64,000 bases of DNA, taken from positions 482,089 to 546,088 of the forward strand of contig CAUYUJ010019893.1 in NCBI GenBank assembly GCA_963575745.1, read 5' to 3'. The translations under genes and the position numbers were made by a program. Positions 7,099 through 44,513 of this stretch are shown here, piece by piece; position 1 is the first letter of the stretch, and each line of letters starts with the position of its first letter. The DNA comes from Prorocentrum cordatum (Eukaryota; Sar; Dinophyceae; Prorocentrales; Prorocentraceae). Below the pieces are notes generated by a model. That model had not been told where the DNA came from. It worked only from the letters and a program-made list of their open reading frames with translations, and made no database searches.

Positions 7099-9334
7099 GT
7101 GAAAAAAAACAGGACTCCTGGGGGTCTGGGAAACCCGGGGAGCCTGGGCCGAGACCACGTTTGGCAACTCATACGAGAGCTCGGGATCCGAGAAGAAGTC
7201 ACGAGACAGCTCCCTTTCACCCAATGGCTCGCGCCTGAGCCTGACGACACCTACTCAGCCCACCAGCCCTGGCTCGAGGTCCCTGGATCCAGAGGTGCAG
7301 ACGTTGACGCCACCACGGCGCTCCCAGTCCCGGAAGGTGTCTCGAATGCCCTGGACGCCCTGATCAACAGGCTGTCCAAGCTACACTGGGAGGAGCGACA
7401 GCGCCATGACCCCGGGAGAGTCACCCGGGGAAGGAGAGGCACCTCACAGACCCCCAGAACCGCCGGAGCGGGGGACAGACCCATGGACAACCCAGGTACG
7501 AGCCAGCGCAGAAGCCGCAGTCGGGCGAACAATGAGGCGGACGTGGCAGGTATGCAAGCAAGTGACGCCAGACCACCTACTGCGACAGGCCCTAGACCGC
7601 CAGCCGCACCTGCAAGCCCCGGGCTCCCCACGTCGGTGACACCACAGACTTGCGCAAACCCCAGCGGAGGGGCCAACGACAACCCGACACTCACCGCGCA
7701 GGGAACGCAACCTCGACGGCAGATGGCACCACAAGAGCAAAGTACGGCACCACCCTCCGTGGCCAGACCGGTCGGCGAAGGAGGACGAGGCCGCTACCCG
7801 GGCTGGCAGCACCGTCCAACTCCCACCCCGGACGACCTCTGCGATCCCCGCGACACCCAGAGAGGGACCAGCACGTTCACACGCCCCGGTCTGCGCCGCC
7901 ACGCCGAGCCCGGGCGTAGGCGAAGTCCCTTCCACAGCCTGCAGCGGTGCTGAAGCTGTGAGCCGAGATAGTCCTGACCCCGCGGAACCTCCCGAGAGAC
8001 ACATCGGCGTGAACACCCCTGGGAGCCCACGGATCTTTCAGGATGAAACAAACACCAACGCTGAGCTGCGATCGACCGGAGGGTGTGGAGCCGCGACTCT
8101 CGACAGTACAGAGAAGGCTCGGGGTACGGCCCCGGCTGCCAGCGCTACAGACGCGGGGGGCGCGGCGTGCAACGAGGACGCACCTCCACGGGTCCCCGCG
8201 GATCCGGCGACAGTCCAGAGCAGGAGACCGCCGCCGGGCACGGCGCCTAGCACTTGCAACGACCCCCTGGGGCGAGGAGACACACCACGAGCTGGGCCTG
8301 AGCTCCCCCCATGCATGGACGCGGACTGGAGACGGGAATCTGCAGTCATGGCGCGTACGCTCAGACTGGCGCAGGTACATGCCTCAGACGGCGCAGGCAC
8401 CCCCCCCTCCGAAGCCGAATGGAGCCAAGTACTCAGTGTGATCGCATGGGCTGCAGCGATACCCCAGCTGGACAAAACTGTCAGAGACCTTCACCAATAG
8501 CTTGGACTCGCCACGCGAATCCCAGACGCCTTCGGCGCTTACTGGACTACCCACCCACCTCTGGGCACGCGCAACCCCGCCGGCAGGAGGATAAACTCAC
8601 GCCAAGCAGCTCTGACTGCAGACGCGGCCTGCGCTCAGTTGAGGCAACTCGCAGGCGGTCCGGCCTCGCGCTCGGACAGTGCGTCGAGGCCAGACGCCCC
8701 CTTTCAGAGCCTGACGCCAGCCATGCTCCGCACCATCCTGCGCGCGGGTGCGGGCCCCCCTTTCTCGGATGATAGGGACCAGGTCCTGAGCGAGACGGTG
8801 GAGGCCTCTCCTAGGAACCTACGCAGTACCGGTAGCACCGCCCGGCTCGCCGGCACTCCCAGACCTGCACGTGCCCCGGCCAGCACTGCCGTGAGCACAG
8901 CCGACGGCGGGCAAATCAGACGCGCCCGTCATCGAAGCTCGACCGGACCGCGACCGGTAGCGCCCAGCACCCAGCCCCAGACTACCGCCGCTGACAGGGC
9001 CCGTGGGAGTCCGACCCACCGGCCACCCAGAGGCAGAAATGACGGCACGCGCAGGACCACACTACGCGGTGTGACACGACGCAGGGCTACGGGCAACGCA
9101 GACAGGGAAAGGTCCACCTGACCAGACAGCAGACCTCCCCACCCAAGAACTCTGGTCGACCTTTGGGAACGCTCCCGCCCAGGGGAGGGCCCTCCCACCG
9201 GGGTCGCAGGAAGAGGTACCACAAGGCGGGCGTCCAGACCGGCGAGTGCGGAGGGCGCACGGATCCGCAGGCCGCGGCCCCGACCCACTGTCTTCCTACC
9301 AGACGAGCCCACGGCCGCCCCCCAGCCTGCCGAC
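7099..9334 (+). CDS. Low-complexity N-terminal region of composite retroelement
   Basis: Consecutive open stretches in changing frames (7099-7953, 7958-8500, about 8510-9121 and on to 9334) encode a Pro-, Arg-, Thr- and Ala-rich protein with almost no hydrophobic core. Short charged helical pieces occur, such as NALDALINRLSKLHWEERQR at about 7342-7401 and MARTLRLAQVHASDG at about 8349. The base and amino-acid style is the same as in the methyltransferase and LINE segments downstream and there is no gap before them, so I place it as the N-terminal (gag/ORF1-like) part of the same element. No zinc knuckle or RRM was recognised. The start at 7099 is only the first ATG in the longest frame; the true 5' end of the element is unknown. 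Confidence 0.4.
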
Positions 9335-10555
9335 ATGCTTCAGCAGGTTTGGGAGCGACATAGGGACGGGCGAACTGGCCTCTCCCCAGTCACACCTGCT
9401 GACACGACGCTTGCTGCGTACCAGGCCGCGGGCCTGGACACTGCACAGATCATCAACACACTAAGGACCCTCCAGCAGGATGGCCTCTTTTCCAGTGTTT
9501 CCCCCGACGGCACTTGGGACATCGCGGGACACCTCAGGCTCCACCCCATCAGTGATCCCAGACATGGGGAGGACTGGACGCATGACTTCACCCAGCAGAC
9601 GAGGGCGCGCATAGTCAACCCCCGACCTGGCCCGAGTGCCACTGTGGGAGCTAGTCTTCATCTTGTATCACTCTTCGATGAATGGGGCCTGGCGAGACTT
9701 GCGGTAGGCGACCTCCTAGCCAAAGTCGCCGCGACTTCTCGGTTCAGATCTTCCGCGTTCGTCGAGTTCAGCGACGAAGCTGCTGCTCGGGTGGAGAGGC
9801 GTTGGGACCGGGACGCTGCCACGCGCTTTGATGGAGGACCCCCGCACATCGGGTTGGGAGCTAATGTGTGGGACCTCCTGAGGGAGGACGACGGTCGGAG
9901 TCCCTGGACCGACCACCTCAGAACCCTGGACCCTGGAAGCTTACTCGTCATCACAGCGGGGCTCCCAGGTGCCAGCCTTTCTGCAGCCAGCCAGCACGGA
10001 GGGCTAGATGGACTTGCGGGTTCCCAGACAGTGCAGTTCTTCGCCGTGCCTCTCCTGTGGAACGCCGCCCGCAGACTCGGCCCGGACGTCCACGTCATAA
10101 TATGCTGCGAATGTCCAGCCACCATCCTACAGGCACACAAGGAGGCAATGTGCACTGCACTGGGGGAGCTCCCCCCAGACTGGGCGGTCCGCATTGATTA
10201 TGCGGCCACAGTCGCCAGCCCGAGGGACCGATTGTGGGTCAGTAATTGCCCTCCCGCGGAGGACCTAGTTACGCACCCTCGGCTCCCCAGTCCCTGGGAA
10301 AGGCAATGGACTTACAGACCTGACGGGCACGTCCCTCCCTGGACCCAGTCCAAGGCTCCTGCCAACGCCCTGGAGGCAATAGTCCCTTGCAGTTACCAGA
10401 CACATCCCCTCTGCTTGCTATGCAATGGGGACAGCAGCCACAGATGGCTCCTCCGCACCCTCGTCGACACCAGGAATTGCATCATAAACATTCTTCAAGA
10501 GACCGGAGCCGAGCGCAACTTCCTGGGCTGCACGGAAGGACTGACGCTCGTCTGC

Positions 10556-10558
<3 letters not shown>
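9335..10558 (+). CDS. DNMT3-like cytosine methyltransferase domain, catalytic Cys lost
   Basis: The frame reads through to a GA microsatellite. Numbering from the ATG at 9335, it shows the C5-methyltransferase motif series. Motif I is SLFDEWGLA (residues 112-120; DNMT3 has SLFDGIATG). A motif II-like FVEFSDEAA is at 142-150. A motif III-like Asp is in GANVWDLL. Motif IV is ITAGLPGASLS (206-216), where Gly212 replaces the catalytic Cys of the Pro-Cys pair. Motif VI-like VIICCECP (254-261) keeps the Glu but lacks ENV. Motif VIII-like SPRDRLWVSN (295-304) keeps the Arg-x-Arg pair. Spacing follows DNMT3-type enzymes. As it stands it could fold and bind SAM but should not methylate cytosine. It lies immediately upstream of an EEP-RT-RNase H unit, matching what I recall of dinoflagellate retrotransposons carrying DNMT genes. 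Confidence 0.72.

Positions 10559-10615
<57 letters not shown>
10559..10615 (+). repeat. (GA)n microsatellite in coding region
   Basis: A perfect 57-bp GA run interrupts the coding stretch. Upstream sense is in one frame and downstream sense appears to continue in another, so variation in repeat number probably destroyed the ORF here. Confidence 0.95.
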
Positions 10616-10617
<2 letters not shown>

Positions 10618-12780
10618 TCGCCAGCGAAGGAAAAGCGAGGGCCTGGGCGGGATGGCTCCTGGCCCACGGCAGAGAACATGGACTCAGGATCCCATCTCCG
10701 GAGGAGCGGGCCCGAGCAGTGGGACTGGGCTCTTACTATCGGTCCCTGGACGTCAGTGGAAAGAAACTCTACGACGCCGTGGGAGCCCACCTGGACCCGA
10801 GATGCCTACAGCGCAGACTTGCGACCGCCATACTGGATTGGAGTAGGAGCGAGAACATCTCCGGGTGCCAGCACGAAGCTCCGACAGAGGGCCAGATCTG
10901 GGCCGCATGGAGACAGGCACGCAGCTTTGCCGACAGGAACTGCCCTTGGGCGCCGCTCGCCGGGAACCCCTGTCCAGACGACATAGTCCGAGCCAGGCTG
11001 CAGCAACAGCTCCTAGATCAAGGGTTGCCGTTCCCCTAGACTCGCCTGAAGACCCAGGGACGCTTCATCTCGCCCTTGGGTCTCCCCCGCTCGCAACTCT
11101 CGTTCCGGGGGCGAGAACCAGAGCTTGGCAACTAGCCTGCTCCTCCCTGAGCCGCGCCCTCGCCCTGCACAGTAACCGCACCGTCCGGCGACCGCGAGCC
11201 CTTTGGGCTTTCTTACACACTACCCCCTGGAGCAACCCCACCTGGGCGGACCTCTGCGGGGCCCTTTCCCTCCGTTCACTTATCGATGCCATCTCCAACG
11301 CCACGCAAGCCGGTTCACTCAAGGTGGGCTGTTGGAACGTTAGGTACCTCAAAAGCACGACTGCTCACAAGAACATGATTAAGCATGCCTTCTTGACGCA
11401 GATGACCACCAACGGTAGGATCGGACTCATTCAGGAGACCCACTGGACAGAACACGAGGCGGCCGTCTGGTCCACCATGTTTCACGCACGCACACTTGTC
11501 GCCTCTCCAGCCTACATTGGACCAGCCGGGGGTTGCGCCGGCGGAGTGGCGATCATCATTCCTCACGGCACCACGCTCCTCCGGGCGGAAGACCTCGTCC
11601 CCGGATGTGCCGTTGCAGCCACCATTAGCCGAGGTGACAGCACCTACCGCCTGGTCTCGGTTTATCTCCCTCCCTCCAGGAAAGCCGAAACCATTGATGC
11701 CATCAGGCAAGCCATCGAAAGGTGGGACGACACCCCTACATACTGGGGAGGGGACGTCAACATCCAGTTGGACAATCCCAGGGACGGTGAAACAGATGAG
11801 GCAGCGGCCCTGGCTGACCTGCTCTCACTGACTGGTTCAAGCGTCTGCCACTGCGATGGCCCCACAAGAGTGGACGCGGACAATGAATCACAGATCGACA
11901 TCGTTGCCTGCCCCTTTCGTCAGTTCGGTGCTTATGGGGTCAGAAAGGCCTGGAGACCCTCAGTCTCCGACCACGCCATCCTTTACATGGAGCCGCAGGG
12001 CGCCCCCAGAACTCGCCGGGACAACACCATTCGTGCGGGCGACCTCCGCCCTTTCCCAAGCGAGGCGCACGCTGAATTAAGGACTCTGTACTCCTTTCTT
12101 GAGCGCACCTTCGAGTTGCCGGACATCGACCTGACCGGCCTCCTTCAACCCGCCGACTGGGTCCGCCCGGCCACCCCTGGTCAATTCCCAGCCAGTCACT
12201 GCGACAACGACGACGGCGAAGGGGAAAGAGAGCAGGAACCCTCCACTCCTCCCCCGGCCCCTAATCCGGGTGATGACCACACCGTCCCGCTTCTGCCCGC
12301 CCCCCTCACGCTTGGTCGCCACGCTCTGTCAGCCGCAATACAGGACTGGTGGAGGAAGTGGCGCAGAAGCAACACCAACCGCTCGCCAGGGACCCTGCTT
12401 GCGGCCGCGGTAAGAACGGATTCCACGAAAGCTGCCCTCTGGCTGCGAAGGCGGGACCATGACGCAGCGCAGAGACGCGCCACCCGCCTCACGCCCGCGC
12501 AAAGGGGCCCCGGAGTGGAGCGCCCCGCGCTTGCCTCTCACTACCGGACGGGGCGAGAAATCTTCGTCAGGACGCATGCCATCCTTGGAGTGCGCGACGA
12601 AGATGGAAGCTGGAAGGAGCGCACCAGGGAAGTTGACGACGTCCTTTGGCGGAGCCGGAGTCCGATCTGGCAAACCGCCCCTCCTCTCCCCCCTACAGCG
12701 GACGGCATCCTAAACGAGTACTTCAGACAAAAGGATACGGAGCACTTCCCACGCTCTCCCAGCCCACAGTGGGGCAGGAT
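10616..12780 (+). CDS. LINE EEP (APE-like) endonuclease and RT N-terminal region
   Basis: After a linker in another frame (about 10719-11036), the frame running to 12895 encodes an endonuclease/exonuclease/phosphatase domain. Catalytic motifs are present in order: GCWNVRYL with the Asn near 11333, LIQETHWT with Glu at 11435-11437, SVYLPPS, GGDVNIQLDN with Asp 11753-11755 and Asn 11759-11761, SQIDIVA, and the terminal Ser-Asp-His at about 11965-11974. In non-LTR retrotransposons this domain nicks target DNA to prime reverse transcription. All canonical catalytic residues are intact. A basic region (about 12330-12650) joins it to the reverse transcriptase. The frame changes near 12780. Confidence 0.85.
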
Positions 12781-13676
12781 TGCCTCTATAGCGGCAGCGC
12801 CCCCGGTGTTGACGGTGAGCCGTGCGAGCTGTATCGTCCCGGTGCGCGCTTTGTTGCTGGACTCCTCGCCCAAGCCTGGTACGCCGCGGCACTGAACCCA
12901 GGGCTCCTGGACCTGGTCCTTGGCCCCTCCGTCGACCTTCTGGTCTGGATCGGCAAGAAACCGGCCGCAGAACGTCCTAACGACATGCGTCCCTTGCAGC
13001 TCCCCACTTGCCTACGGAGACTGCATGGAGCGACCATTGCCGATTGTCTTGGCCCCGTGATTGAACCCAGGCTTAGCCCCAATCAAGCTGCCAAGCGCGG
13101 GGGACAGTGCGGTCCCAACATCACCGCTGCCACCAACCATCTTGCCCTGGATCCCGTCCCCGACTCCGAACCCGGGCCCTCCTGGACCGCCCTGCTTGGC
13201 GCGCGCCAAGAAGCTGTTGACCGCTATATACTGGACGCCGCTCGGCAACTAGGCCCTGCCCCGAGCACGGCTGTTCTCTTCTGCGATCAAAACAAAGCTT
13301 TCGAGCGCATATCCTTGCAGTGGATTGGCAGCTCCCGACCTGGCTCCTGCACTCCGTGGACTGCCTCGTCGGTAGCAGGAGCGCACGCACCTGCAAGGGT
13401 AGGTGCAAAAGCAGAGTAAGGAAGCTTTTACGGTCTATCGGAATGGGAGGCACCGCCTCCTCGCTCCTCTGGTGCCTAGGATACGACCCTCTCATCAGCG
13501 CCCAGGCCGACATCACCGGGGCGGGCGATCCGACTTACGTGGATGACCTCGTTGCCCTGCTGGGCGCCACCGCCCAATCACTGCGCGCCGGCATCGCCTT
13601 GCCCTGGCTCGCAAGAGCGGCGGGGCTCCTCGTCGAAGCCCACCAGTGCAGGAGCATTGCAGCCCCATCCCGATGA
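12781..13676 (+). CDS. Non-LTR reverse transcriptase fingers and palm
   Basis: Two overlapping frames give the RT core. In the first are SAPGVDGEPCELY (motif 0 type), NDMRPLQLPTCLRRLHG and RLSPNQAAKRGGQ (fingers), then motif A FCDQNKAFERI with the catalytic Asp near 13285-13287. A frameshift at about 13320-13330 leads to motif B GMGGTASSLLWCLGYDPLI and motif C TYVDDLVAL with Tyr-Val-Asp-Asp at 13536-13547. All three catalytic aspartates are present, so catalysis was probably lost through frameshifts and not through motif decay. The order EEP then RT marks a LINE-type element. Confidence 0.85.
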
Positions 13677-15139
13677 TGGCACCACCACAACTGTTACAGG
13701 CCTGCCTGCCGGGCTCCTCCTGGAAATGATCAGGCGCGCTGCTGGCTCCAGTATTGCGGCTCAGTGTTCTCCCTGGACCAGCCCATGCATGTGCAAATTT
13801 AAAACGGCCCTGGTCCCCGCCAGCAGCCACGATTGGTGGAGACGCACCATGGACTTCACCCCTTTCGGCTCATCCGCCGTCCGTCCCCAGTGGCCCTATC
13901 TCGGCGCCTGCATCGTATCTAGGGCCGCCGAAGGGGAAAATCTACCGCCCAGGGGGAGAATGACAAAGGGACAACTCGACGCCCTCGTCGCCGGCACCTG
14001 GGGCAAACCCCTCCCCAAGCTGCGGGACCGGGCCATGGCCCTCCACCTTGCCAGCATGTCTCCCACTAAAACCGCCCTCGCCTGGAACACCTACCTCATC
14101 GCGCTCATCCCGTACCCATCCCACTACTCCCTCCCTGACACCGTGCAAGAAAGGGCACTCAGAGCACACCTGCGGGTAGCCCTTGGTCTTGCCTCTGCCT
14201 CCTGGATCCCAGACAACATCCTCACTGGTCTGGGCATCCGCTTCCAAGTCCCTGGCTGCCCCAAATGCCCGGTTGCTACCTCGCGTGCGATCGCGGCCAG
14301 GGCGCACGCCCTTGACGACCTGTGGGGGCCCCTACAGGCGAGACATAAGGCGGGGAGCAGGTGGAACAAACTCGTGAAATGGGCGCGGGACTTCGCCCCT
14401 CGGGATGAGCCACGTAGGCCCGGCTCCAAGGTGCTGACCGACGCCAGGGCCGCTGACCTTTTCAATCGCGCCTTGAGAGAGCCCCCTAGGCGCCGGGCCC
14501 GCTACTTCGGGCGTTGCGGCCTGGACGCAGCTCCACGGGCACGTGGTGAGCTCCTGGTTCTCCCCAACCAGCCACGAGCGTAGGTGGGCGCAAACAGACG
14601 GTGCGGAATGGCCCCTTCTCGGGCACTGCGCCTCCCTCACCGAGGCGCACCACGTCCTCCGCGTTCTGGCCAACGGACTACCCGGATCCGCGCGTAGACG
14701 AAGCGTCGCTGACAGGATCCCCCACCAATGCGGCTGCGGCAGGATGGCCAATAGAGTCTGGCTCACCGCTGGACAACGGGATCGCGGTCAGGCCCGGTGC
14801 GACTCGCGCCTTGGACCCTGGGCCGGAGAGGCCCCCCTCTGGCCCCCCCTTGGCCACGACGCTTTGCCCGAGGACTTGCGTCCACTTGCTGCGGAGAGAA
14901 GAGGACCACTCGGAGACATCACCGTTCCCATACGGCAAGGACTCTACGGAGCCTGCCCTCTCTGCGGCCTGGGAGAAGCCACTACTGAGCACGTGTGGGG
15001 CTGGTGCCCCGCCGCCGCCCTCGCCCGGGAAAAGACCAAAGGCCCTGACCACCCCAGAGACCTTCCCACCGCGATATGCTCCAGGGGGCAGCACCAGAGA
15101 CTGGTCTGCCGCCTTCTACACCAGATCTCCTTTAGATAC
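13677..15139 (+). CDS. RT thumb/connection and CCHC zinc finger of LINE
   Basis: Coding continues in two frames. 13677-14583 is helical and basic (thumb and connection region, e.g. DTVQERALRAHLRVALGLAS). 14543 to about 15100 carries a zinc knuckle YGACPLCGLGEATTEHVWG followed by WCP (about 14947-15008). This is the C-P-L-C-x-x-x-x-x-T-x-E-H...C pattern typical of the region after RT in LINE ORF2 proteins. At least two frame changes and one in-frame stop near 15142 break it. Confidence 0.7.
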
Positions 15140-16232
15140 TGCGTGAACCTGGACCTGCGCCCCCATCGGAGCCGACGAAGCCGCCAGAATCATTGCCCAG
15201 GGAATCCCCGTGCCAGACACCGACCTCCAGGAAGACAATGAGGAGGAAGAAGACATACAAGAAGGGCAGGCCCCTGCTGCACCGGCGGGCGAAACTGCAG
15301 TCTGGGCCCCCATGCTGCTCCCCTGTCAACTTTGCAATCCCCAAGGCCCGCGCCTGCTGCGCATTCAGGGGGCCGCTGGTCCGCATCTCGACAGACAAGC
15401 TCCACGCGCTGGAGGGGAAATCCGGCGCCTCCCTGTCACGACCAGGATCGTGCGGAGTGGGGATCGGATCGCCGTTCTCCAAACGGGCGACACCAGAGCG
15501 AGTTGGATGCCGCCTGGGTTGGGCTGGTTCCCCTGCCCCAGGACAGACAGGTCCCCCAGTGCCCTCTGGACCAAGAGCTACTGCCGACTCTGCGACCTGC
15601 ATACCCTGGTGCTCAGAGCCAGCAGGGGCATGGAAGCTGGCGAGGAGATCACCGTCAGAGACTCCCCGCTCCCCGCTGCCGATGCGGCCCAATGGCCCTT
15701 TGAGCTCACCTTCGACGGGGGGGCTCGCCGAATTGGGGGAGACGACAAGGTCTCCGGGGCGGCAGCTGTCCTCTGGAAACACGACCCGCACCGCGGCTAC
15801 CCGCGCGTCGTCGCGGTTACCGTTGTTGCCCTCCCGGGCTGCGACAATGCACAGACGGCGGAGGCATCCGGGTGCAGAGCGGGGCTCGCCCTGCTCCCCC
15901 ACCTTGACACCAGCCTCCGAGGTGCCCGGGTGGTCGGCGACAATCTTGCCGCCATCCGGTACGGAGCCGGCACGGGCCGCTATCGCCGGCTCCACCTGGC
16001 ACAGCAGATGGACTTCGCCCTTCGGCAAGCAAGCGAAGCCGGATGGACACTTACATGGCAGGCCGTGCGTCGTCGCCTCAACAAAGCAGCTGACCGTCTT
16101 GCCACACTAGGTGTCTTCTGGGCCGATGCCCTTCGTCGCGCCGGCGATCTAGCCGTCACTTCCTGGGTCGTCTGGGAGGGCTCCCAGCTGCCCACCCCCC
16201 CTGTTTCCTGCCGCGGACATCGACCTCTGTGA
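15140..16232 (+). CDS. RNase H domain of LINE
   Basis: The frame ending at TGA 16230-16232 first shows Cys pairs (LPCQLCNPQG and SYCRLCDLHT) and then an RNase H fold. The four catalytic acidic residues appear in order: Asp in ELTFDGGARR (near 15713), Glu in AQTAEASGCRAG (near 15861), Asp in RVVGDNLAAIRY (near 15939) and Asp in LNKAADRLATLG (near 16091). This would remove the RNA strand after cDNA synthesis. The position C-terminal to RT and the zinc finger agrees with RNase H-bearing LINE clades. The stop is probably caused by a slip in the C run near 16193-16201, because sense continues in another frame (FPAADIDLCDLDQVALFVD). Confidence 0.85.
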
Positions 16233-16919
16233 CTTGGACCAAGTTGCGCTGTTCGTTGATGCCCTCGAAAGTCCCCCCCCCCTCCTCCCCCTCTGATCGC
16301 CCCCCGCCGCGACACGCTAAGGTCCTGACGGGTCGCAGCGTCACTGCCATCACAAGAAGCGCAGCCTTCCGCTGCCATCCTGGACCGGTTCCCACCCTGG
16401 ACAATGCCCAAAAACAACCAGGGCCCTGTCCGCCGTTGGCCCTCCTGCCTACCGTGCAGTGACGAAGGGCCGCCAATGCGCGCGGGAACGCGCGTCTTCC
16501 TGGCCCGCTTCTGTCCCCGGATGCGTTGGGTCTACTTCCACGGCGGTTGGCGACACTGGTGCGAGATCTGCCAGGAGCCCGTCGACGACACAGAACACAT
16601 CCTAAGCGCGAAGCACTACGACATGTCGGTGGCACGGTACCAGGACGGGTGGCCAGACCCGAACACTTTCACCACTCCTGGGAATCTTTGGTGCATGTGC
16701 GGAGGGAACCCCTACGACGCTACCCACCAGGTGTCTGTCACGCGGTTGGCCTGGCGCGGCTGGAAACCAGTCCAGCCCTTGGTTACCCGTGACGGGGTGC
16801 GCTCGCTACCTGGCATCGCGATCCCCGAGGATGCGCTGCGCGTGCCCATTACCTACCCCCTCCTGGGACGATCCGTCGACATACAACTGCCCAGGAGGCA
16901 CCAGGGTGGAGCCGGATAA
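16233..16919 (+). CDS. Cys/His finger tail following RNase H
   Basis: Sense continues after RNase H through C-rich homopolymers into the frame 16404-16919. It encodes RWPSCLPCSDEGPP and a finger WCEICQEPVDDTEHILSAKH at about 16558-16617 (C-x2-C ... H-x5-H), then VWW-type aromatic sequence up to the stop. The finger may bind nucleic acid. I know of no specific family name. It overlaps the next coding frame, so it may have been one polyprotein with the helicase segment. Confidence 0.5.
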
Positions 16920-16931
16920 GGTTCGTTCGCA

Positions 16932-18406: not shown

Positions 18407-18560
18407 GTTAACATAGCACGTCGGCAGTTTAGCTTACATGCAACGTCATGTATGTTACAACAACTTCAACTTGAAAGGGCACCTTGTATGTTGGAAAAAC
18501 GTCAACGTGCAAGGGTACTTTGCATGCTTAAACATGTTCAACATGATGCAATGCCGGCGC
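18390..18560. repeat. Left terminal inverted repeat of the 19-kb interval
   Basis: Reading inward from CTGGGGGGC at 18390, the sequence matches the reverse complement of 37405-37563. In the section TAGCACGT..TTTAGCT.ACATGCAA I count about 31 of 37 positions identical, and similarity continues more weakly through TACTTTGCATG. The splice donor GTTAAC at 18407 lies inside this repeat. Confidence 0.7.
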
Positions 18561-18616
18561 ACACAATATGCCCGCGCACAAATGCCCCAACCAGTTTCGG
18601 GGGAAACCGCCTATAG

Positions 18617-20850: not shown

Positions 20851-20865
20851 AGGGAGCGCAGGCGA

Positions 20866-31545: not shown

Positions 31546-31672
31546 AGTCGAGCACGACAGCTGCAGGCAAGCTGCGGGTCCCCACGATGAGCCCCATCTA
31601 CCTGGGGACCTCCTCCTCCTCGTTATCCTCCATCCTCCTCCTCATCATCCTCTATCCTCCTGCGCTTCCGTT

Positions 31673-31693: not shown

Positions 31694-31734
31694 CTTGAGT
31701 GCTAGTTTGGCGGGGATACACACCGACGCTTCGA

Positions 31735-34700: not shown

Positions 34701-36018
34701 TGCAAAAGGGGCCTATCACCACTTTCGGCGTTGGTGCAATCGCTGTCGTCACCGGTCGCTTGGGCAGAGTTCGATGCGTTGTATCTCTTATCGTGCATTG
34801 TGCTGAAGCGCCTTCAAGGTGATTCCTCAGATTCCTTTACGATGTCATCAAATGGTCTATGAACTGCCTCGCCGACGGTCGCTGGCCTGAGCGAGATCAT
34901 CTAGACATGCCGTTTGCAGGTGATCGGACTTATCGGGCGAGATATGCAGGGCAATGGCTCGCCCCCGTCGGCGATGACAATGGCCTCAAAGGTTTTCTCG
35001 CGAATTTCCTGGCAGATCAGAAGTATGCAAAGGAAGCTTTCGAGATGCCGTTTCACTATGGAAAAATACTCTTTGTTATTTCTGCACGGCGCCCAAACAG
35101 AGGGGCGCTCAATACTTCGGAGATTTCAGGCAGGGCGCTTGGGAGATGCGAGGCCGTAGATCCACTTCGGAATACTTGGCCACGCTCGGGGGCTCGTCGG
35201 CCCCGCCGCTGACAAAGATCAAGGGTTTCAATTTAGAAATGTTGTCTGTCGATTTTCTTTATTGGGACCACCTTGGATTTGCGTCTTGGCTTGCTGGGAA
35301 CGGGCTCTACCGCGCTGCCGAAGTGCGGTCGGGTGGTCAGGCGGGGTCGTTTGAGGTTCGGATCAATGCGGCTCTGCGTTTGATTTTCCCTGATTTTGCG
35401 CAGTGGGCTGCCGCCTACAACGTTGCGCATTCGGAGCGGGACTTCACGTTGAATCGATTGTCGGTAAGCTCTCGCAACTCCAAGTGGCCAGATTTTAAGG
35501 GGAAAGCTCACAACACCGCCGTGGTTTGCAAGTTTTTAACGATGTTTTTGCAATCTCAGCCAGGTTTCGTTTCTGAGGAGGATTTGCTTCTCAAGCATGC
35601 ATTTGTGGGCTGGGCGAGGGTCCAAGATGCTCTGCACGATGCCCTAGATACTTTAAGCATCGAGCAGGCCCGGGCACTCCTGCACCATGGAACTCAATGC
35701 CTGAAGACATGGTGTGTTTTAGCTCAGGTGAATGCCCGCAAACATCTGCGGCGTTTCCAAACTATGCCCAAACACCATAATTGGGAAGAGGGCATCAGAC
35801 AAGCTGCCAGAACTAGGGCGAATCCTCGCACGACGCGGGTGTATAAGCATGAAAGTTTCGTGGGAATTATTTATAGGATCGCTGGGAAAACGCATCCAGC
35901 GACCAGCAGCCGAACCGCGTTGAAGCGATGGCTCCTTGGGCTGACCAGTTCGAAGGGCAAGGGATTTGCGTGCAGATCGAAGCGTGGGCTTCGAGCACGG
36001 CGGCGAATTCGCAAGTAA
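31735..36018 (+). CDS. Unknown multicopy family gene (copy 2), with intron(s)
   Basis: ATG 31735 (MSDTVKSEQPKLLG) is chosen because it follows the spliced-leader relic and begins normal-composition sequence. The N-terminus is a Pro/Ala/Gly/Lys-rich linker, then a globular part (PQQRFDLWCGGQMSWAKVEL, DWYWGHEVDATMPEPVAHAL) and, after a frame change at an A run near 32795, a coiled-coil-like segment to about 33138. Pyrimidine-rich DNA to 34262 looks like intron. An exon from 34263 (DKYCVGAIREAAAACKEGQ) leads to YLFKMPFLKKDD, LPHDMFARLYL, RDHLDMPFAGDR (about 34889), CYFC, LEMLSVDFLYWDHLGF (about 35234-35281), DFKGKAHNTAVV and a basic tail ending KRGLRARRRIRK, stop 36016-36018. The part from 34.26 kb matches the 3.4-5.2 kb gene motif for motif. 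Frame changes near 34860 and 35080 indicate damage. Function unknown; a transposase relationship is possible. Confidence 0.55.
33722..33840 (+). repeat. CTC tract in intron of copy-2 gene
   Basis: Imperfect CTC/CCT run ending at a potential acceptor (GCTTCCAG near 33842). More pyrimidine-rich DNA with CTACTCGACAT words follows to 34262. Confidence 0.8.
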
Positions 36019-36770
36019 CGCGGTGTTGTCAGGATAAGGGGGCTTGGCCAAACAAATTTCTAGCTCATCAACCCTCCCATGTTATCCCCTGTCCTCCAGC
36101 CCTTCCCTTCTCCAAATGCTTCCCCCGCCCTCCGCGAGGGGCCCCGAAAAGAACCCGCGAGGAACCCGCGAAGGCCACAGAGACCCGCAAGGAACCAACA
36201 CCTCGAGGAGTAAACGAAGCAAGGGCCAGAAGGCGAGGGGAGCCCCCGGACCCCGCCTAGGGTCTAAACGACCGAAGTTTTCGAGGCCCTCCTGGGCCCC
36301 TCCCGGTGACCAAACAAACCAAGAGCCCCTGGGCTTCCCCTGGGATCCAAACGTTTCGCGCGAGACGCCCTGGTAAATATTGGGCAATTAGTAACGATAG
36401 TGGCCAGAGCATTGAGGCAGCGGCGCAGCCACGCCGCACGCGATCATGGAAAGACGCGAAAACGCGCTGATGGGGAGGGGGGGGGGGAGAAGGGAGGGGA
36501 GGAGGGGCGAGGGAGGAGGGAGGGAGAGAGGACGGAGGGAGGGAGGAAGGTGGGAGAGGGGAGGAAGGAGGAAGAGGAGGAGGTTTGGATATTCAAAGCG
36601 CTACGCGCTTGGCAACCTGGATATTCAGGGCGCCACGCGCGCGGCACTCTGGACTGGCTCCTGCCCGCCGCTGTTCCCCTCGCCCGCGCCCCCGAGCGGC
36701 CGCGCCCCCGAGCGGGCCCCAGGGGGGAACCTGAGTCCGCGCGCAGGGCGCGAATGGTCAGTATGCCAGA
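36019..36770. other. No gene seen; purine-rich spacer
   Basis: 36120-36330 repeats AACCCGCGAGG-like words. 36470-36585 is GGGAGG-rich. Two copies of GGATATTCA...GCGC.ACGCGC lie at about 36588-36645. Confidence 0.5.
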
Positions 36771-36785
36771 CGCAAAAAGCAGACA

Positions 36786-37045
36786 TGCGCGCGCGCACGC
36801 ACGCACGCACGCACGCACGCACACACACACCCACGCACGCATGCACGCACGCACACACACACACACACACGCACGCACGCACACACACACACATTCACAC
36901 ACACGCACACATTCACACACACACGCACACACACGCACACACACACGCACATATATATATATACATATATATATATATGTATATATATACATGCACATAT
37001 ATATATAGAGAGAGATGCGTGTATATATATATATACACACACGTG
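36786..37045. repeat. CACG/CACA and TA microsatellites
   Basis: ACGC/ACAC alternating repeats (about 36786-36948) pass into ATATAT runs (36949-37036) ending ACACACACGTG. The last ~25 bp are reproduced at the duplication junction at 38455-38480. Confidence 0.9.
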
Positions 37046-37404
37046 AAAACAAAACCGTTTTTGATACCGACTTCTGCGACATTTTTGGCGGCCATAGCGC
37101 GCGCCTGACTGCGCCATAGATTGCGCCATGAGCTGCGCCCGAAAATGCGGCATACATTGAGCCAATCGTTGCACGGGCGCAAACTTAGGGCGGCGTGCCC
37201 CGCTCGGGCGCGCGCGCCGCGCCATGCACCCAGCGGCGCCGCTATGGCCGCGGCGCGGGCGCGAATGACACCGCAAGTTGCCGCATTGATCGCGTCGATG
37301 TTGGTTCGGCCGCAAACTAGAGCGGCGCGCCCCGCTCGGGCGCGCCGCGCACCCAGCAGCGTCGACCTCGTCGCGGCGCGCGCGCGACATCACTTGCATG
37401 ATCA

Positions 37405-37563
37405 ATCATAACCAATGTACAATCTATAAGACACCGAACTTACCATGTCAAGCTTTTTGTGCACATGCAAAGATACTTTGCTTGCGCTAAAAAACGGCGC
37501 CTGCACGACCTTGCATGTTAGCTAAAATGCGAACGTGCTAAGGCATCTTGCATGTGCCCCCCA
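37405..37563. repeat. Right terminal inverted repeat of the 19-kb interval
   Basis: The reverse complement matches 18390-18560 (CTGGGGGGC at the end, then TTAGCACGTTCGC, TTTTAGCTAACATGCAAGG). A second, near-identical copy lies at 38915-39073 because of the tandem duplication. Confidence 0.7.
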
Positions 37564-37564
37564 G

Positions 37565-38448
37565 GGGGCTACAAGGAGTTTGCGGGCATGTGGGGTTCCT
37601 GCCTACGCCCTGGACACGCTGTCGCTCTGGCAGCAGGGTCCAACACGGCGGTCGACCAACCAGCTCTGGCAATGATCGAGGCACAACGTCAGCGGCGCCT
37701 CGACCAAGACACGGGCTTCCCCGACAAGTTCGTGCGCCTGGCAAGGAAGGACCGTGTCAACGAGGCACTTGTTGACCTTACTCCCGAAGGTCACTACAGA
37801 AACGCCCACGGCGAGTTCCCCTTCCGGGACGGGGACAAGAACCAGGGCTTCAAGCCCTACAAGGCGAGCTTACTACGTCAGGCCGGGATAATCATGTCCA
37901 CGCACGAGGCGTCAGAGGCACTTGGTCAAAAGGACAGCCCCCAAATCGTCCTCCTAGTCATCGACGAGGCCGGACAAGCCACTGAGCTCCACGCGCTCAT
38001 GTCCATGGCAAATCTGATCAACAGCGGAGGGACCGTGGTCCTCGTCGGAGACCCCGACAAGCTGCCCCCCACAGTGCTCTCCAAACTGGCGAACGAACTA
38101 GGGCTCTGCGTCAGCATCTTCGACAGGATGTTCCACGCACTCCGCGGCCAGGAGTCTTCAGTAGTTCACCTTTCAATTTGCTATCGGATGCATCCGCAGC
38201 TATTCGTTTTCCCGAACGCAGCCTACTACGGGAAAGGCATGAAGTCTGGCATCCTGGATCCGCTCAGAGAGCGGCCAATAGTTGAGGGCATTCCCTGGAG
38301 AAACATTCGCGCGTGGGAACCTGAACGACTGGCGAAGCTGGCTACGCTCACCGGTTGCGACGAAAGCGACTTCCGCGCCACCCTTGAGCCCCTGGACCCG
38401 CCGCTGGGCCCAGACAAGCACCGTTTCCTAATGGTGCACACACCCTCC
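37565..38448 (+). pseudogene. Helicase exon, truncated duplicate
   Basis: After the CCCCCCAG acceptor the frame encodes GYKEFAGMWGSC, the motif GSNTAVDQ, Walker B VLLVIDEAGQATE, motif III VVLVGDPDKLPP and ICYRMHPQLF. It then runs into the palindromic junction (VHTPS followed by VCVYIYTHT and a stop). Motifs V and VI are missing, so it cannot make a complete helicase. It has GDPDK where copy 2 has GDPNK. Confidence 0.85.
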
Positions 38449-38449
38449 T

Positions 38450-38480: not shown

Positions 38481-39074
38481 AAAACAAAACCGTTTTTGAT
38501 ACCGACTTCTGCGACATTTTTGGCGGCCATAGCGCGCGCCTGACAACGTCCACCACCGAATCGCGAATTACCCCGCTACCCCGCGCCATGGGGCCGCGCG
38601 CGCGATTCCCCCCGCCCCCTGCGCCATAGATTGCGCCATGAGCTGCGCCCGAAAATGCGGCATACATTGAGCCAATCGTTGCACGGGCGCAAACTTAGGG
38701 CGGCGTGCCCCGCTCGGGCGCGCGCGCCGCGCCATGCACCCAGCGGCGCCGCTATGGCCGCGGCGCGGGCGCGAATGACACCGCAAGTTGCCGCATTGAT
38801 CGCGTCGATGTTGGTTCGGCCGCAAACTAGAGCGGCGCGCCCCGCTCGGGCGCGCCGCGTACCCAGCAGCGTCGACCTCGTCGCGGCGCGCGCGCGACAT
38901 CACTTGCATGATCAATCATAACCAATGTACAATCTATAAGACACCGAACTTACCATGTCAAGCTTTTTGTGCACATGCAAAGATACTTTGCTTGCGCTAA
39001 AAAGCGGCGCCTGCACGACCTTGCATGTTAGCTAAAATGCGAACGTGCTAAGGCATCTTGCATGTGCCCCCCAG

Positions 39075-40570
39075 GGGGCTACAAGGAGTTTGCGGGCATG
39101 TGGGGTTCCTGCCTACGCCCTGGACACGCTGTCGCTCTGGCAGCAGGGTCCAACACGGCGGTCGACCAACCAGCTCTGGCAATGATCGAGGCACAACGTC
39201 AGCGGCGCCTCGACCAAGACACGGGCTTCCCCGACAAGTTCGTGCGCCTGGCAAGGAAGGACCGTGTCAACGAGGCACTTGTTGACCTTACTCCCGAAGG
39301 TCACTACAGAAACGCCCACGGCGAGTTCCCCTTCCGGGACGGGGACAAGAACCAGGGCTTCAAGCCCTACAAGGCGAGCTTACTACGTCAGGCCGGGATA
39401 ATCATGTCCACGCACGAGGCGTCAGAGGCACTTGGTCAAAAGGACAGCCCCCAAATCGTCCTCCTAGTCATCGACGAGGCCGGACAAGCCACTGAGCTCC
39501 ACGCGCTCATGTCCATGGCAAATCTGATCAACAGCGGAGGGACCGTGGTCCTCGTCGGAGACCCCAACAAGCTGCCCCCCACAGTGCTCTCCAAACTGGC
39601 GAACGAACTAGGGCTCTGCGTCAGCATCTTCGACAGGATGTTCCACGCACTCCGCGGCCAGGAGTCTTCAGTAGTTCACCTTTCAATTTGCTATCGGATG
39701 CATCCGCAGCTATTCGTTTTCCCGAACGCAGCCTACTACGGGAAAGGCATGAAGTCTGGCATCCTGGATCCGCTCAGAGAGCGGCCAATAGTTGAGGGCA
39801 TTCCCTGGAGAAACATTCGCGCGTGGGAACCTGAACGACTGGCGAAGCTGGCTACGCTCACCGGTTGCGACGAAAGCGACTTCCGCGCCACCCTTGAGCC
39901 CCTGGACCCGCCGCTGGGCCCAGACAAGCACCGTTTCCTAATGGTGCACACACCCTCCTGGGAGGTCACTTCCGAGCTACAAACAGGCTTTGCCAATCTT
40001 CCGGAGGCGGCCCAAGCCGTGGATATTGCGCGCGCCCTGCTACCGGAGCTCCACAAGGGCACCACTGTCAGAATCGTGGTCGGCCACCAACTCCAGACGG
40101 CCATTCTCATGGACGGATGGCCGCAGGGTCCTCGTCACCTCACCGGCGTTCTGCGTAACACCAGAGGTGGCGCCAAAGGGCAGCCCGGCAAGGGGAAAGA
40201 CGGTCCTGGACGCGGCGGCCGGGATATTCTTGGCCCTGGACAACCCCCCCAAGGCCACAGGGTGGACATTCACCGCTGGCAACAGGTGTTCCGGGAAGAC
40301 GACAACGCTAACACTGCCATCAGCTCTAACTTCCCTGGACTACGTCAGGTGGCGGGCGAGCACATGAGCACTGGGGCTCTCAAACTCACGACAATCGACT
40401 CCAGCCAGGGAGGCGAGGTGGACATCGTAATAGTGTTAACTACCCGGAGCAACGGCAGCTACAACTGGGGTTTCGTCGACGACGCCAAGCTCCTGAACGT
40501 GGCAATCACCAGGGCCAAGCGGAATATCCTGATCTTCGGAGACGGTCGCATGTTCGCCAGCGCCACATGA
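39075..40570 (+). CDS. UPF1-like superfamily 1 helicase, main exon
   Basis: The exon follows CCCCCCAG at 39067-39074 and carries the rest of the helicase motifs in order: GSNTAVDQ (Ib type), LLVIDEAGQATE (Walker B, Asp-Glu at 39473-39478), LVGDPNKLPP (III, about 39554-39583), SICYRMHPQLF (IV, Tyr-Arg at 39692), TIDSSQGGEVDIVIV (V, about 40391-40435) and LLNVAITRAKRNIL (VI, about 40488-40529). Together with the Walker A exon ending at 18406 this is a complete SF1B set of UPF1/DNA2-like type. An N-terminal accessory domain typical of cellular UPF1 was not recognised. The TGA at 40568-40570 is in the same frame as the next ORF, and the protein probably continued through it. Role in a retroelement is unknown; unwinding of template or target nucleic acid is a guess. 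Confidence 0.85.
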
Positions 40571-42241
40571 TCGCAGCTTCGCGTGCTCTCAGAGCACGGG
40601 AGACTGACTCGCCTCTGGGTCCAGTTTCGTGGCAGCGCCCCCGTGGGCCGCAGGCTCTCCCTGGACATTGACGACAGCTTCGACCCACTCCAGGACCTTG
40701 CCGCATGGATCCCCTCGCCCCCTGCCTGGGGCAGCGTCGCAAAGGGGGAGAACGGACAGAACGAGCTGGACGTCGCCAAGCAGAAAGCGCGCGATGCCCA
40801 GGCCACCTGCTTCGCCGAGCGGTTCAATGCACCCCTGGAAGAGAGCTTCGACTGGGACGCCCTGGGCAAGCTAATCTCGGGAGGGCTCCACGATATCCTC
40901 TCGACGCCGGCCTTCCACGTGCTCATCTACCTTATGTCCAGGCTGCATCCTCACGAGTTCACGTTGGCCAACACGCCGCGGCAGCCGGGCGTGCTCGACC
41001 GCAAGGCTTGGTCGCACCTGGGGTTCTTGTTTGACATGTCTCTCGGGCTCGACGCGACCAATCTAGTCTACAACACGCTGTGGGCAGCAATGGTCTGGTC
41101 GCTCGGCCTAGGCACTCCCTGGAGGGATGCGAGCTACGCCATTCCCGACGACTCCCTTCCCCCGTTGCTTCACGCCAGCGGCAGGCGTGCAACGCTGTGG
41201 AAGCGCCGCCAGTGCACCCCCAAAGGGCTCTTCCATCAGGTCCCCAAGGCTTGGAGTTCCGTTACCAAGGACTGCTGCAGACACCGGAAGCACCCTGGAA
41301 TGACCGGGTTGGGAGACATCATCCGGGGGTGCGGCTCCTCGATGGAAGATTTCCGTCAGGGGCTCTTAGACACCGACGGCCAGCCCATGGATTCCTGCAA
41401 GGCCCGCTCGCTTCTGGTGGTCATGATACTGATGCTCCGTGAGCCGCGAGTGTTTCTATGGCCTTTCTCTCATGCAGAGCAGGCCGGGGACGTCATCGAA
41501 GCCATTCTGCGATTCTGCGTACCCTGGCAAAAGGTCCACCAGGATTTCCGAAGCCGGTTCGCCAGCACCTGGAGCCTCACCCTGGAAGAGTTGGCCGACC
41601 TGCACAGTCGCATCGAGGCAGTGCTACACCACATCTCCAAGCTCGTGGCTTTGGCCCATCACCACCCGGCTGCGCAGAAAACCGGCTGCCCGCAGACCTG
41701 GAGCGAGATGGACAGGCAGGACTTCCAGCTGCAAGCGCCGATGATCGTTCTCGAACGGATCGTCCCGGCAGCAACTCTGACCTGCCTGGACACGGGCGAC
41801 TGCTCAGTGTGTGCACTACACGTCGCACCGGCTGGTTCCGACGCCTCCCTCGGTCCCGACGACAGGGTTGCGGGCCTTTCCTACATCGGCGGCGGACTTG
41901 CCTTGTCCCAGACCGACCTCAATGCCCCTCCACCACCGGCTCCGGCCCCGGGCACCAGACTGGACCCTCCGTTCTTCCCCGGCGAAAGGCTCGCGCTCGA
42001 AAAGAAGAACAACATATACACGTGCGACAGTTGCGGGAAGGACCACCTGACTGCCGCTGAAGGTACCTGGATCTCCGACAGCACGCGCCAGATGGTCGCT
42101 CAGAATAGACCTCAGGCGTACATCAACGGCGCCAACATGGGCTGGTACTGCGCTGGCTGCTGGATACGGAACCTCGAGGACAATGGCTTCCCTACGCCTG
42201 CCGGAACGAAGCTCACCGACAGAATCAACGAACATGCATGA
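40571..42241 (+). CDS. Helicase C-terminal extension, unknown, with zinc finger
   Basis: The same reading frame as the helicase continues past TGA 40568-40570 (LRVLSEHGRLTRLWVQFRG) to TGA 42239-42241. It is Trp- and His-rich, mostly helical (LIYLMSRLHPHEFTLANTP; AEQAGDVIEAILRFCVPWQK). Near the end it has two Cys pairs, YTCDSCGKDHLTA and GWYCAGCWIRN (about 42020-42175), suggesting a zinc-binding unit. I recognise no family. The close fit to the helicase frame suggests one polypeptide before the stop arose. Confidence 0.6.
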   Translation, partial: SQLRVLSEHGRLTRLWVQFRGSAPVGRRLSLDIDDSFDPLQDLAAWIPSPPAWGSVAKGENGQNELDVAKQKARDAQATCFAERFNAPLEESFDWDALGKLISGGLHDILSTPAFHVLIYLMSRLHPHEFTLANTPRQPGVLDRKAWSHLGFLFDMSLGLDATNLVYNTLWAAMVWSLGLGTPWRDASYAIPDDSLPPLLHASGRRATLWKRRQCTPKGLFHQVPKAWSSVTKDCCRHRKHPGMTGLGDIIRGCGSSMEDFRQGLLDTDGQPMDSCKARSLLVVMILMLREPRVFLWPFSHAEQAGDVIEAILRFCVPWQKVHQDFRSRFASTWSLTLEELADLHSRIEAVLHHISKLVALAHHHPAAQKTGCPQTWSEMDRQDFQLQAPMIVLERIVPAATLTCLDTGDCSVCALHVAPAGSDASLGPDDRVAGLSYIGGGLALSQTDLNAPPPPAPAPGTRLDPPFFPGERLALEKKNNIYTCDSCGKDHLTAAEGTWISDSTRQMVAQNRPQAYINGANMGWYCAGCWIRNLEDNGFPTPAGTKLTDRINEHA

Positions 42242-44513
42242 GCAGCAGATATCGGGGACCGGCAACGACAGGGCGAGTGCCCTCCCTTCCCTGGGACTCC
42301 TTCCGCTCGGCTACGGCTGCAGCCCCCTGGCGGACACGAGGCAGTTAGATGACCTCCTCATGGAACCGACGGGCATGAAGATCCCCGAGTGTGCCAATAC
42401 CACCATTCCGGTCCTCCGGACCCGGGACGACCGCTTCGGCATCAAAGCCGCTCAGACGCGGACCTACTCCGCGCGGTGCGACACCTGCCCCCAGGGGGCC
42501 CCGATCCTGGTCTGGGACCCAGGCTCCCCGCCGCTGGGGTGCTTCATATGGAAGCCGGCTGAAGACATAGGAGTTCCCGAGCAACATGGGCTGCCCCCCA
42601 TCGATAAGCGTGCCCTGGCCTGGTGGGGGCGCCAATTGAACGCTACTTGGTGCTGCCGGCGCTGTCTGGTCCCGATCTGGAACATAGGCCCGGCCACCCT
42701 GGACCACATCCTGGATCGCGACTTCAGGCCGCTGTATCCAGATGAACCTCCGGCCCTTCCCCCGCTCAGCAGCCAGATTGGGTTCGAGGCACCTGTGGAC
42801 ATCGTGGATTCCCTCCCGTGGCTTGGCGAGGACGCCAAGGCCCAGGACCAATTCGCCAAGGTCGGAGCAAGCAATCCCCCTGGACCCAGCCCTACAGGCA
42901 GCTCTGGCGCGGCGCCAGAGATCACCTCCCTGGCAGGGTCCCCGCCATCTGGCGCGTGTTCTGGTGGCGACGACAGGCCAGATACTCCCATGGCGGCCGA
43001 CACAGAAAGGTCTCAGGGTTCAGCGGACAACGACTCACGCATGGGCCACCATGACCCGCCCGACGACGACAACGGTGAAGGCGCGGAAGACGGGCTCCCC
43101 CTTCACAAGATGGAGCCCGACTACGAAGAGGATGGGCCCGCCCGTCCTCCCACGCCTTCCGAGTCGGCCCAGGAGGGTGATAATGATCGCTCAGGCGGCG
43201 ATGGCCCACAGCGAAGCCCGTCGGCGGGCAGCTCTGACACCAGCCGCGAGGATACCGCGACTTCAGTCGCAGAAGATACGCCCTACGCCGATCGCAGGAG
43301 GGCTCCAGCCCGAGACCCCGCGAGGCACGAGAGGACCAGCGACGGTGGCGGCTCGCGGCACGAGCGCTTTCCCGCGCCCACCCCGACGCCCCCTGAGCGG
43401 AGGCCCCATTACTCTCGCCATACTGGCTCTTCGGAGCAGGGCGCACTCAACATGCTGTCCTGCCCTGAAGGAGGCGGCCCAATGTACAAAGTCAGGCTGG
43501 GCACCGTCGAACTCGAACGTCCCGACGAGACACCAGCCAGTCGCATATCCAGGCAACAGTCGCAGCTGGGAGCAGTCTTTCGCGCACTGTGGACAGCGAA
43601 CACGCAGCGTACCCTGCTCCCTGGATGGAGGGCGCCCAAGTCCGACCCGAAACTACACATGCCCTCGGATATCATCAACTTCCTAGAGGCCTGGAAGGAC
43701 TGCGGGTACGACGCCTACGAGATGAACAGGAGGCTGGGCTACGATGTCGACTGGAACAAGATGCGAGCCAACTACCTGCGTCACTCCCAGACAGACGACA
43801 GGAGCAAAGGCGGCTATCGCGCCACACGGGCTGGCGCGACCGTGCGACAAGTTCCTGGGACACCTGGAGCAGTTGGCAGGGCGAGTGGCGCGACGGATGG
43901 CGTGAGGATCACCGGCAGACGGGTGGCAAGCGCGGCGGAGGTTACCCTGATGATCGGGATGATCGAGAGGAAAAGAGACTCCGCTGGAGAGACTGAACTC
44001 CCTCTCTGCCCTCGCCGCCCCCCGGTGCCCGCGCCACCGCCTGCGCTTCGCAACGCGCCACCTCGGCCCTCTGCCGCCCTTTCCCTCAGCCTGGGGCAGC
44101 TCTGCCCCCCCTCCCCTGAGCGGCACCCTCTCTCACCCTTGGCCTTGGGGTGCCGTTCGGTAATGCCGTCTGCTCCGCGCGTGACACCGCGCATCCTGCA
44201 GACCAACTTGCCACTGGCAGCGCTGCCTTTCTCAACCGGTGGCCGACGCCCTCTTGTCACTCGGCTCTTCTTCCCCCGCCTTGTTTCACTTCCTGAATTC
44301 CAGCGGACGCTGCCCAGGCCGCGCCGCGGGCCCCTAATCGCGGCGCTCTGCCGCCCTCCACCCGACGCGCGCACCTCCTGCCTTTGGATCCAGGCGCGCG
44401 CTTCGGCAATGCCGCCCACCGCCTCTCCGCAGTGGACTCGCGGCCTCAGGCCCTACTGTAGTTGTCTCACCGCCAGGCCTTCCTGGCCTGTCAGTGGGCC
44501 ACGGCTCGCCTGA
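42234..44513 (+). CDS. Downstream ORF of composite element, unknown
   Basis: ATG 42234 overlaps the previous stop in the string ATGCATGA, so I prefer it to upstream in-frame ATGs. The N-terminal third has two Cys pairs (RCDTCPQGAPILVW at about 42477; WCCRRCLVPIWN at about 42651), possibly one zinc site. The middle (about 42860-43400) is acidic, Ser/Pro-rich and likely disordered. A compact helical part follows (DIINFLEAWKDCGYDAYEMN, about 43669). After about 43800 a second frame, ending at 43996 in a basic/acidic tail (DDRDDREEKRLRWRD), looks more natural than the Pro-rich frame running to 44513, so the true end may be 43996. Composition matches the LINE and helicase segments. Confidence 0.5.
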   Translation: MHEQQISGTGNDRASALPSLGLLPLGYGCSPLADTRQLDDLLMEPTGMKIPECANTTIPVLRTRDDRFGIKAAQTRTYSARCDTCPQGAPILVWDPGSPPLGCFIWKPAEDIGVPEQHGLPPIDKRALAWWGRQLNATWCCRRCLVPIWNIGPATLDHILDRDFRPLYPDEPPALPPLSSQIGFEAPVDIVDSLPWLGEDAKAQDQFAKVGASNPPGPSPTGSSGAAPEITSLAGSPPSGACSGGDDRPDTPMAADTERSQGSADNDSRMGHHDPPDDDNGEGAEDGLPLHKMEPDYEEDGPARPPTPSESAQEGDNDRSGGDGPQRSPSAGSSDTSREDTATSVAEDTPYADRRRAPARDPARHERTSDGGGSRHERFPAPTPTPPERRPHYSRHTGSSEQGALNMLSCPEGGGPMYKVRLGTVELERPDETPASRISRQQSQLGAVFRALWTANTQRTLLPGWRAPKSDPKLHMPSDIINFLEAWKDCGYDAYEMNRRLGYDVDWNKMRANYLRHSQTDDRSKGGYRATRAGATVRQVPGTPGAVGRASGATDGVRITGRRVASAAEVTLMIGMIERKRDSAGETELPLCPRRPPVPAPPPALRNAPPRPSAALSLSLGQLCPPSPERHPLSPLALGCRSVMPSAPRVTPRILQTNLPLAALPFSTGGRRPLVTRLFFPRLVSLPEFQRTLPRPRRGPLIAALCRPPPDARTSCLWIQARASAMPPTASPQWTRGLRPYCSCLTARPSWPVSGPRLA

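Follow-up and report, generated by a model that had tools for sequence, protein, structure and literature searches.

A decayed LINE-type coding tract followed by a UPF1-like helicase reading frame in the dinoflagellate Prorocentrum cordatum

Accessory genes have been described in several long interspersed elements (LINEs). According to the main text of PMC5890265, SymbioLINE-Dnmt of Symbiodinium has a DNA methyltransferase (DNMT) open reading frame (ORF) upstream of a reverse transcriptase (RT) ORF with an endonuclease/exonuclease/phosphatase (EEP) domain and RNase H; its DNMTs have conserved key residues, and target-site duplications (TSDs) and conserved untranslated regions (UTRs) are described. 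The insect LINEs TRAS and Jockey are described as carrying viral-type superfamily 1 (SF1) helicases inside ORF2 or ORF1 (PMC5563155, PMC6338049). Here, we analyzed a 64,000-nucleotide stretch of Prorocentrum cordatum DNA (hereafter the window; contig CAUYUJ010019893.1, positions 482,089 to 546,088). Its plus strand holds a decayed coding tract at 7.07-18.37 kb and 39.10-44.0 kb, parted by an insertion. Along the tract, ORF1 is followed by ORF2 (EEP endonuclease, YVDD RT, zinc knuckle and RNase H) and then by ORF3 (C2H2-like finger, UPF1-like SF1 helicase and Cys-rich tail). The catalytic motifs persist though the frames are broken by frameshifts. We lean modestly towards reading the tract as a decayed ~16-kb three-ORF LINE-type (non-long-terminal-repeat) retrotransposon with the helicase ORF3 downstream of ORF2.

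ORF2 (11,003-16,296, plus strand, as for all coding features below) is delimited by two relatives from ENA contigs, P0001 and P0002, its start being extrapolated from residue 1 of P0001. When the tract was read through from RT to helicase and used as a protein query, 26 proteins were matched: P0001 (1,811 aa, 62% identity; a cluster of 12 member sequences) and P0002 (1,791 aa, 50% identity), which match ORF2, and 24 helicases with at most 14% query coverage. P0001 and P0002 align across EEP, RT, zinc knuckle and RNase H, with tblastn spans of 11,027-16,269 and 11,063-16,205, respectively. The EEP core (11,327-11,983) shows the motifs GCWNVRYL, QETHW, GGDVNIQ, SQID and SDH, and the RT (12,793-13,673), placed by alignment, has motifs A (13,279), B (13,440) and C, TYVDDL (13,533). 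A zinc knuckle, CX2CX8HX4C (14,954-15,007), is present in both relatives too, and the RNase H (15,702-16,115) is placed by its D-E-D-D residues, alignment to the relatives and a weak Pfam match. The Pfam matches of the window ORF2 itself fall under the curated cut-offs (Exo_endo_phos_2, 1e-4, for the EEP; RVT_3, 4e-4, for the RNase H), and RVT_1 is matched only in the relatives, also under cut-off (4e-5 in P0001, 1e-6 in P0002). The EEP, YVDD RT, CCHC finger and RNase H named in an earlier sequence-only reading of this DNA are thus confirmed by the alignment to P0001 and P0002, with an EEP followed by an RT in one ORF as in LINEs. The P0001 match is split into seven pieces by six frame changes; runs of at least five C residues lie at three of the six, so some of these changes may be sequence errors.

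In blastp alignments both P0001 and P0002 reach the same final window residue (~16,269), beyond which P0001 has four residues, P0002 three and the window eight before its stop at 16,294-16,296. As ORF2 is a protein of its own in two relatives, ending at the window stop, the tract does not encode a single polyprotein. A decaying LINE and a UPF1-like helicase, in the order and orientation proposed in the sequence-only reading, both stand, while the giant polyprotein envisaged there does not. ORF1 and ORF2 are treated as separate on the basis of where P0001 and P0002 are predicted to begin. Like SymbioLINE-Dnmt, which has Exo_endo_phos, RVT_1 and RNase_H in its second ORF, the tract has an upstream ORF followed by one with EEP, RT and RNase H; unlike SymbioLINE-Dnmt, compared here by its published description rather than its sequence, the tract has no ends or TSDs that we could find and is followed by a helicase ORF.

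ORF3 begins at 16,404, where the coding frame that follows ORF2 has its earliest ATG. Its 5' part (16,404-18,367), defined by codon scans, alignment and motifs, holds a C2H2-like finger (16,560-16,616), a linker and helicase motif I (18,319-18,345), with frame changes near 16.9, 17.94 and 18.10 kb. The 3' part (39,098-42,238) holds the remainder of the helicase (end of motif VI at 40,531), an uncharacterized domain and a Cys-rich tail (42,023-42,163), with one in-frame stop at 40,568. A continuation in another frame (42,231-44,004) contains further Cys pairs (42,477-42,680) and extends beyond the end of the closest relative of the helicase, P0027, its coding signal fading towards 44.0 kb. On the joined helicase, AAA_11 (1.8e-24) and AAA_12 (1.9e-25) score above the Pfam cut-offs, the PDB relatives are SEN1 (9e-26) and UPF1 (2e-19), and the motifs present include GPPGTGKT, DEAGQ, GDPNKLPP and NVAITRA. 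Viral_helicase1 also passes its cut-off (23.4 versus 21 bits, E 6e-5), far below AAA_12 (90 bits). The UPF1-like SF1 helicase of the sequence-only reading is thereby upheld, and the Cys/His finger and Cys-rich C-terminal part are recovered as motifs; in profile searches of each segment, AAA_11 and AAA_12 were found as anticipated and a DNMT was not. Like TRAS and Jockey, the tract combines a non-LTR retrotransposon with an SF1 helicase, and in TRAS, as described, a zinc-binding domain likewise precedes the helicase (PMC5563155, PMC6338049). Unlike the RNA-virus-type helicases reported inside ORF1 or ORF2 of those elements, the window helicase is nearest SEN1 and UPF1 and lies in a separate downstream ORF: ORF2 terminates at 16,296, ahead of the helicase, and the best helicase relatives are cellular among the 120 matches listed. 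Neither a LINE with a UPF1-like helicase nor a dinoflagellate LINE with any helicase was found among open-access titles and the openings of abstracts, a scope that leaves aside most subscription papers and bioRxiv.

A codon-usage Viterbi scan over both strands of the window gave a long plus-strand chain at 7.07-17.94 kb (an apparent start at 6.37 kb is a stretch over a CTC repeat) and, beyond the insertion, chains at 37.57-38.45 and 39.08-44.0 kb; the stretch at 18.03-18.40 kb was missed, yet holds an open frame with helicase motif I. As the training set included segments from this tract, the scan shows continuity and is not independent proof. Other short plus-strand pieces lie at 22.1, 53-55 and 58.9 kb, many of them in triplet repeats, and the minus strand gave only six short pieces. 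Two further plus-strand chains, at 23,886-26,718 and 31,953-34,692, fall within the insertion and are partly repeat-driven, and the open frames there have no Pfam match above cut-off. The proposed succession of coding segments on one strand is thus borne out, as also by a separate codon model trained on ORF2 alone; in both analyses the signal weakens near 44.0 kb, short of the 44,513 previously proposed as the end of the tract. The chain is broken by frameshifts and a few stops, indicating that the copy has decayed. No Pfam match was obtained for ten open frames lying elsewhere than in the insertion, of which nine fall beyond the limits of 7,099-44,513, and no Rfam family was matched.

Whether ORF3 belongs to the same element as ORF1 and ORF2 is the central issue. 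The ORF2 stop and the ORF3 ATG are 107 nt apart, and this tight spacing favors one unit. Under the ORF2-trained codon model the expected frame ranks first of six in eight of nine ORF3 segments. ORF3 has no intron at the site of the insertion and P0027 is a single 1,314-aa protein, both of which also favor one unit. On this evidence ORF3 may have been mobile together with ORF1 and ORF2.

A less probable but serious alternative is that a two-ORF LINE (~7.07-16.4 kb) inserted by chance just upstream of another unit that carries the helicase, either a mobile element or an intronless gene. In its favor, the P0001 and P0002 proteins terminate at the window ORF2 stop, and SymbioLINE-Dnmt is described as having one ORF ahead of its EEP/RT/RNase H ORF, with no occurrence of the word "helicase" in the main text of PMC5890265, supplements aside. 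Several observations weigh against a single unit. ORF2 and ORF3 occur together in none of the 26 read-through matches, though none need do so if the ORFs are separate. The longest contigs differ between the relatives (26,613 bp for P0001, 19,751 bp for P0002 and 11,804 bp for P0027), and viral and GTDB contigs, scanned with short patterns, gave neither a relative nor a linked copy. No linked second copy was retrieved, so what ties ORF3 to the element is its spacing from ORF2, its strand and its codon use. The codon evidence itself is uneven: 16,900-17,250 fails the ORF2-trained model, with no coding signal, 43,200-44,004 scores 0.03, within the range of non-element controls (best 0.06), open frames guided the choice of segments, and a shared genome may by itself account for the similar codon use. 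Damage is also unequal, with two stops and 11 frame changes in the 11.3 kb of the 5' part (7.07-18.37 kb, ORF boundaries excluded) and one stop and one frame change in the 4.9 kb of the 3' part (39.1-44.0 kb); this contrast of 13 breaks with two could mean different ages. Nor did 5.8-7.2 kb share a repeat above the null with 43.9-46.0 kb, where the ends of a three-ORF element would fall.

The junction, however, argues against two neighbors. The 107 nt leave little room for the 3' UTR of one element and the 5' UTR of another, and a reading of the gap found no A-tail. A comparison of 5.8-7.2 kb with 16.25-17.0 kb, where a two-ORF LINE might end, gave no shared repeat above the null, so neither tail nor duplication is seen there; strand is shared and codon style similar on either side. 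In all, three pairs of candidate ends were compared for shared repeats or a TSD, and as none shared a repeat above the null, the element ends are undefined.

That ORF3 is instead a helicase gene of the host, of UPF1/SEN1 type and perhaps reinserted from an mRNA, which adjoins the LINE by chance, appears improbable. Its helicase does belong to the UPF1-like family and, like UPF1, SEN1, SMUBP2, MOV10 and DNA2, combines AAA_11 and AAA_12 with the helicase motifs. Dinoflagellates reinsert processed mRNAs, and the window contains one relict resembling a spliced leader, with no such match near 16.3 kb. A search with the helicase part, which scored proteins of ~720-2,300 aa among the 7,995 candidates with the most words in common, matched 169 proteins. 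Among the 120 matches listed, which include named eukaryote sources, P0027 (E 9e-181) covers 78% of the query and aligns over most of it, while the other 119 reach at most 31%, so no conserved host orthologue is evident. P0027 also aligns over ~600 residues past the helicase, Cys-rich tail included, and these residues have no Pfam match in the window. The N-terminal UPF1 zinc (CH) domain (PF09416) was not found in the scanned ORF3 pieces or in P0027. In a tree of 22 hand-picked rows, the window helicase and P0027 joined with support of 100/100 and were separated by a branch of 3.1 from the UPF1, SEN1, SMUBP2, MOV10 and DNA2 rows, grouping with none of them. The tree holds a single UPF1 row, from which ORF3 is parted, and covers neither HELZ, ZNFX1 nor other branches; P0075, P0035, P0087 and P0044, missed by the motif filter, were dropped beforehand, the root serves for drawing only, and with such long branches the position is uncertain. 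Unlike the UPF1-like families compared, ORF3 and P0027 thus stand on a separate long branch and have in common the ~600 post-helicase residues; unlike UPF1 proper, ORF3 does not have PF09416. Of 7,985 candidates in a search with the whole of ORF3, none matched at E 0.001 or below, most likely a result of low-complexity words crowding the candidate list, and the predicted structure of the ORF3 tail (pLDDT 34) was not used.

The tract is interrupted between helicase motif I and the GSNT motif (37,630) by a 19,219-bp insertion (18,368-37,586, no strand assigned) with 76-bp terminal inverted repeats (TIRs). The sequence-only reading had noted a 19-kb interval within the tract; the interruption is real, and its position is corrected here to the inside of the helicase ORF. 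The TIRs (18,368-18,443 and 37,511-37,586) are 82% identical and align with a score of 110, against a maximum of 48 over 300 single-base shuffles. CA flanks the insertion on both sides, a match expected by chance in one case in 16. Once the flanks are joined over a single CA, the frame is open and 24 residues separate motif I from GSNT, the same as in P0027, a spacing that other joins would equally give and that does not fix the breakpoint. The possibility that the helicase gene simply has an intron here, a question separate from that of the unit, is an unlikely one: the interval sits cleanly inside the ORF and some dinoflagellate introns contain repeats, but the TIRs score well above shuffles, CA stands on both sides with the P0027 spacing restored on joining, and the ends are CCCGCA...TGCGGG instead of GT-AG. 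A Pfam scan of 10 open frames in the insertion for a transposase gave, at E below 0.1, only FAM76 (0.027), under cut-off.

The insertion also holds two arrays of a related 89/90-bp satellite (18,755-20,643 and 22,244-23,890). The spliced-leader-like relict lies in it at 31,673-31,693 on the plus strand, with three mismatches in 21 positions to the dinoflagellate spliced-leader pattern; none of 100 shuffles had one, while a shorter pattern matched three times, a number reached in three of 100 shuffles. The relict is evidence for a dinoflagellate source, though not proof of one. It stands just upstream of an open frame (31,699-32,928) without a Pfam match, and together the two resemble a processed mRNA that was reinserted. 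A tandem duplication was found by self-alignment, its first copy made up of the insertion's 3' end plus helicase motifs Ia-IV: 37,109-38,449 and 38,619-39,959, offset by 1,510 bp, match over 1,341 bp with three mismatches and no gaps. This duplication is either recent or an assembly artefact.

ORF1 (7,072-11,036) is broken, with three frames and two in-frame stops, and was delimited by codon scans and motifs found by eye; it is left unclassified. Methyltransferase-like strings were seen, by eye only, at 9,659-9,688, 9,950-9,982, 10,217-10,246 and 10,698-10,739, in the order expected of DNMT motifs and with PG at the PC position. The sequence-only reading had taken this segment as methyltransferase-like, and no family, PDB or profile search supports it. 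Searches of Pfam (E up to 10), PHROGs (E up to 1) and PDB (E up to 10) did not match ORF1 to a DNMT. Pairwise comparison with DNMT3A and M.HhaI sequences gave z values of 0.1 and 0.5, with 120 and 86 of 300 shuffles scoring as high, and against a profile built from four sequences the ORF1 segment ranked 13th of 456 frames, a noise-level result. The predicted fold of the segment had a pLDDT of 36 and was not used. In the best local alignment to DNMT3A the PG/PC site and the later motif strings are in register, an alignment of no statistical weight. The methyltransferase-like open frame has a sole Pfam match, to DUF3915 (1e-4, under cut-off), located at the end of the frame that resembles a repeat. 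With every one of these tests failing, DNMT identity is unproven and ORF1 is not filed as a DNMT; it thereby differs from SymbioLINE-Dnmt as described, with no supported C5-DNMT in the upstream ORF and PG where PC is expected. It is possible that ORF1 is a divergent, dead DNMT relative. A perfect 57-bp (GA)n tract (10,559-10,615) coincides with a frame change in ORF1.

Two other direct repeats lie outside the tract: one of ~1.2 kb with 65% identity just downstream of it (45,800-47,738), and one of 1.5 kb with 79% identity, rich in CGA triplets, at 53,100-56,083.

If the tract is a three-ORF retrotransposon, its history may have run from insertion of the LINE through frameshift decay to entry of the 19.2-kb TIR element into ORF3 and then the 1.5-kb tandem duplication. 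From the families represented, we infer that one polycistronic RNA would be made from ORF1-ORF3, and the biochemical roles of all the element's proteins are likewise putative. The ORF2 protein would nick the target, prime cDNA synthesis there and remove RNA from the hybrid. The ORF3 helicase may unwind or strip the unusually long RNA template or hybrid, allowing full-length copies; alternatively, it may shield the polycistronic RNA from UPF1-dependent decay. We regard as evenly poised the broader proposal that this is a giant three-ORF LINE with a dedicated UPF1-like helicase as its own factor for RNA remodelling or evasion of nonsense-mediated decay, and that the helicase family arose from mobile DNA and falls outside the UPF1-like branches known so far. 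Were ORF3 to move with the LINE, the element would be a retrotransposon with its own UPF1-like motor. This would offer a handle on how very long LINE RNAs come to be fully reverse transcribed, and on whether polycistronic retroelement RNAs evade nonsense-mediated decay via a decoy UPF1.

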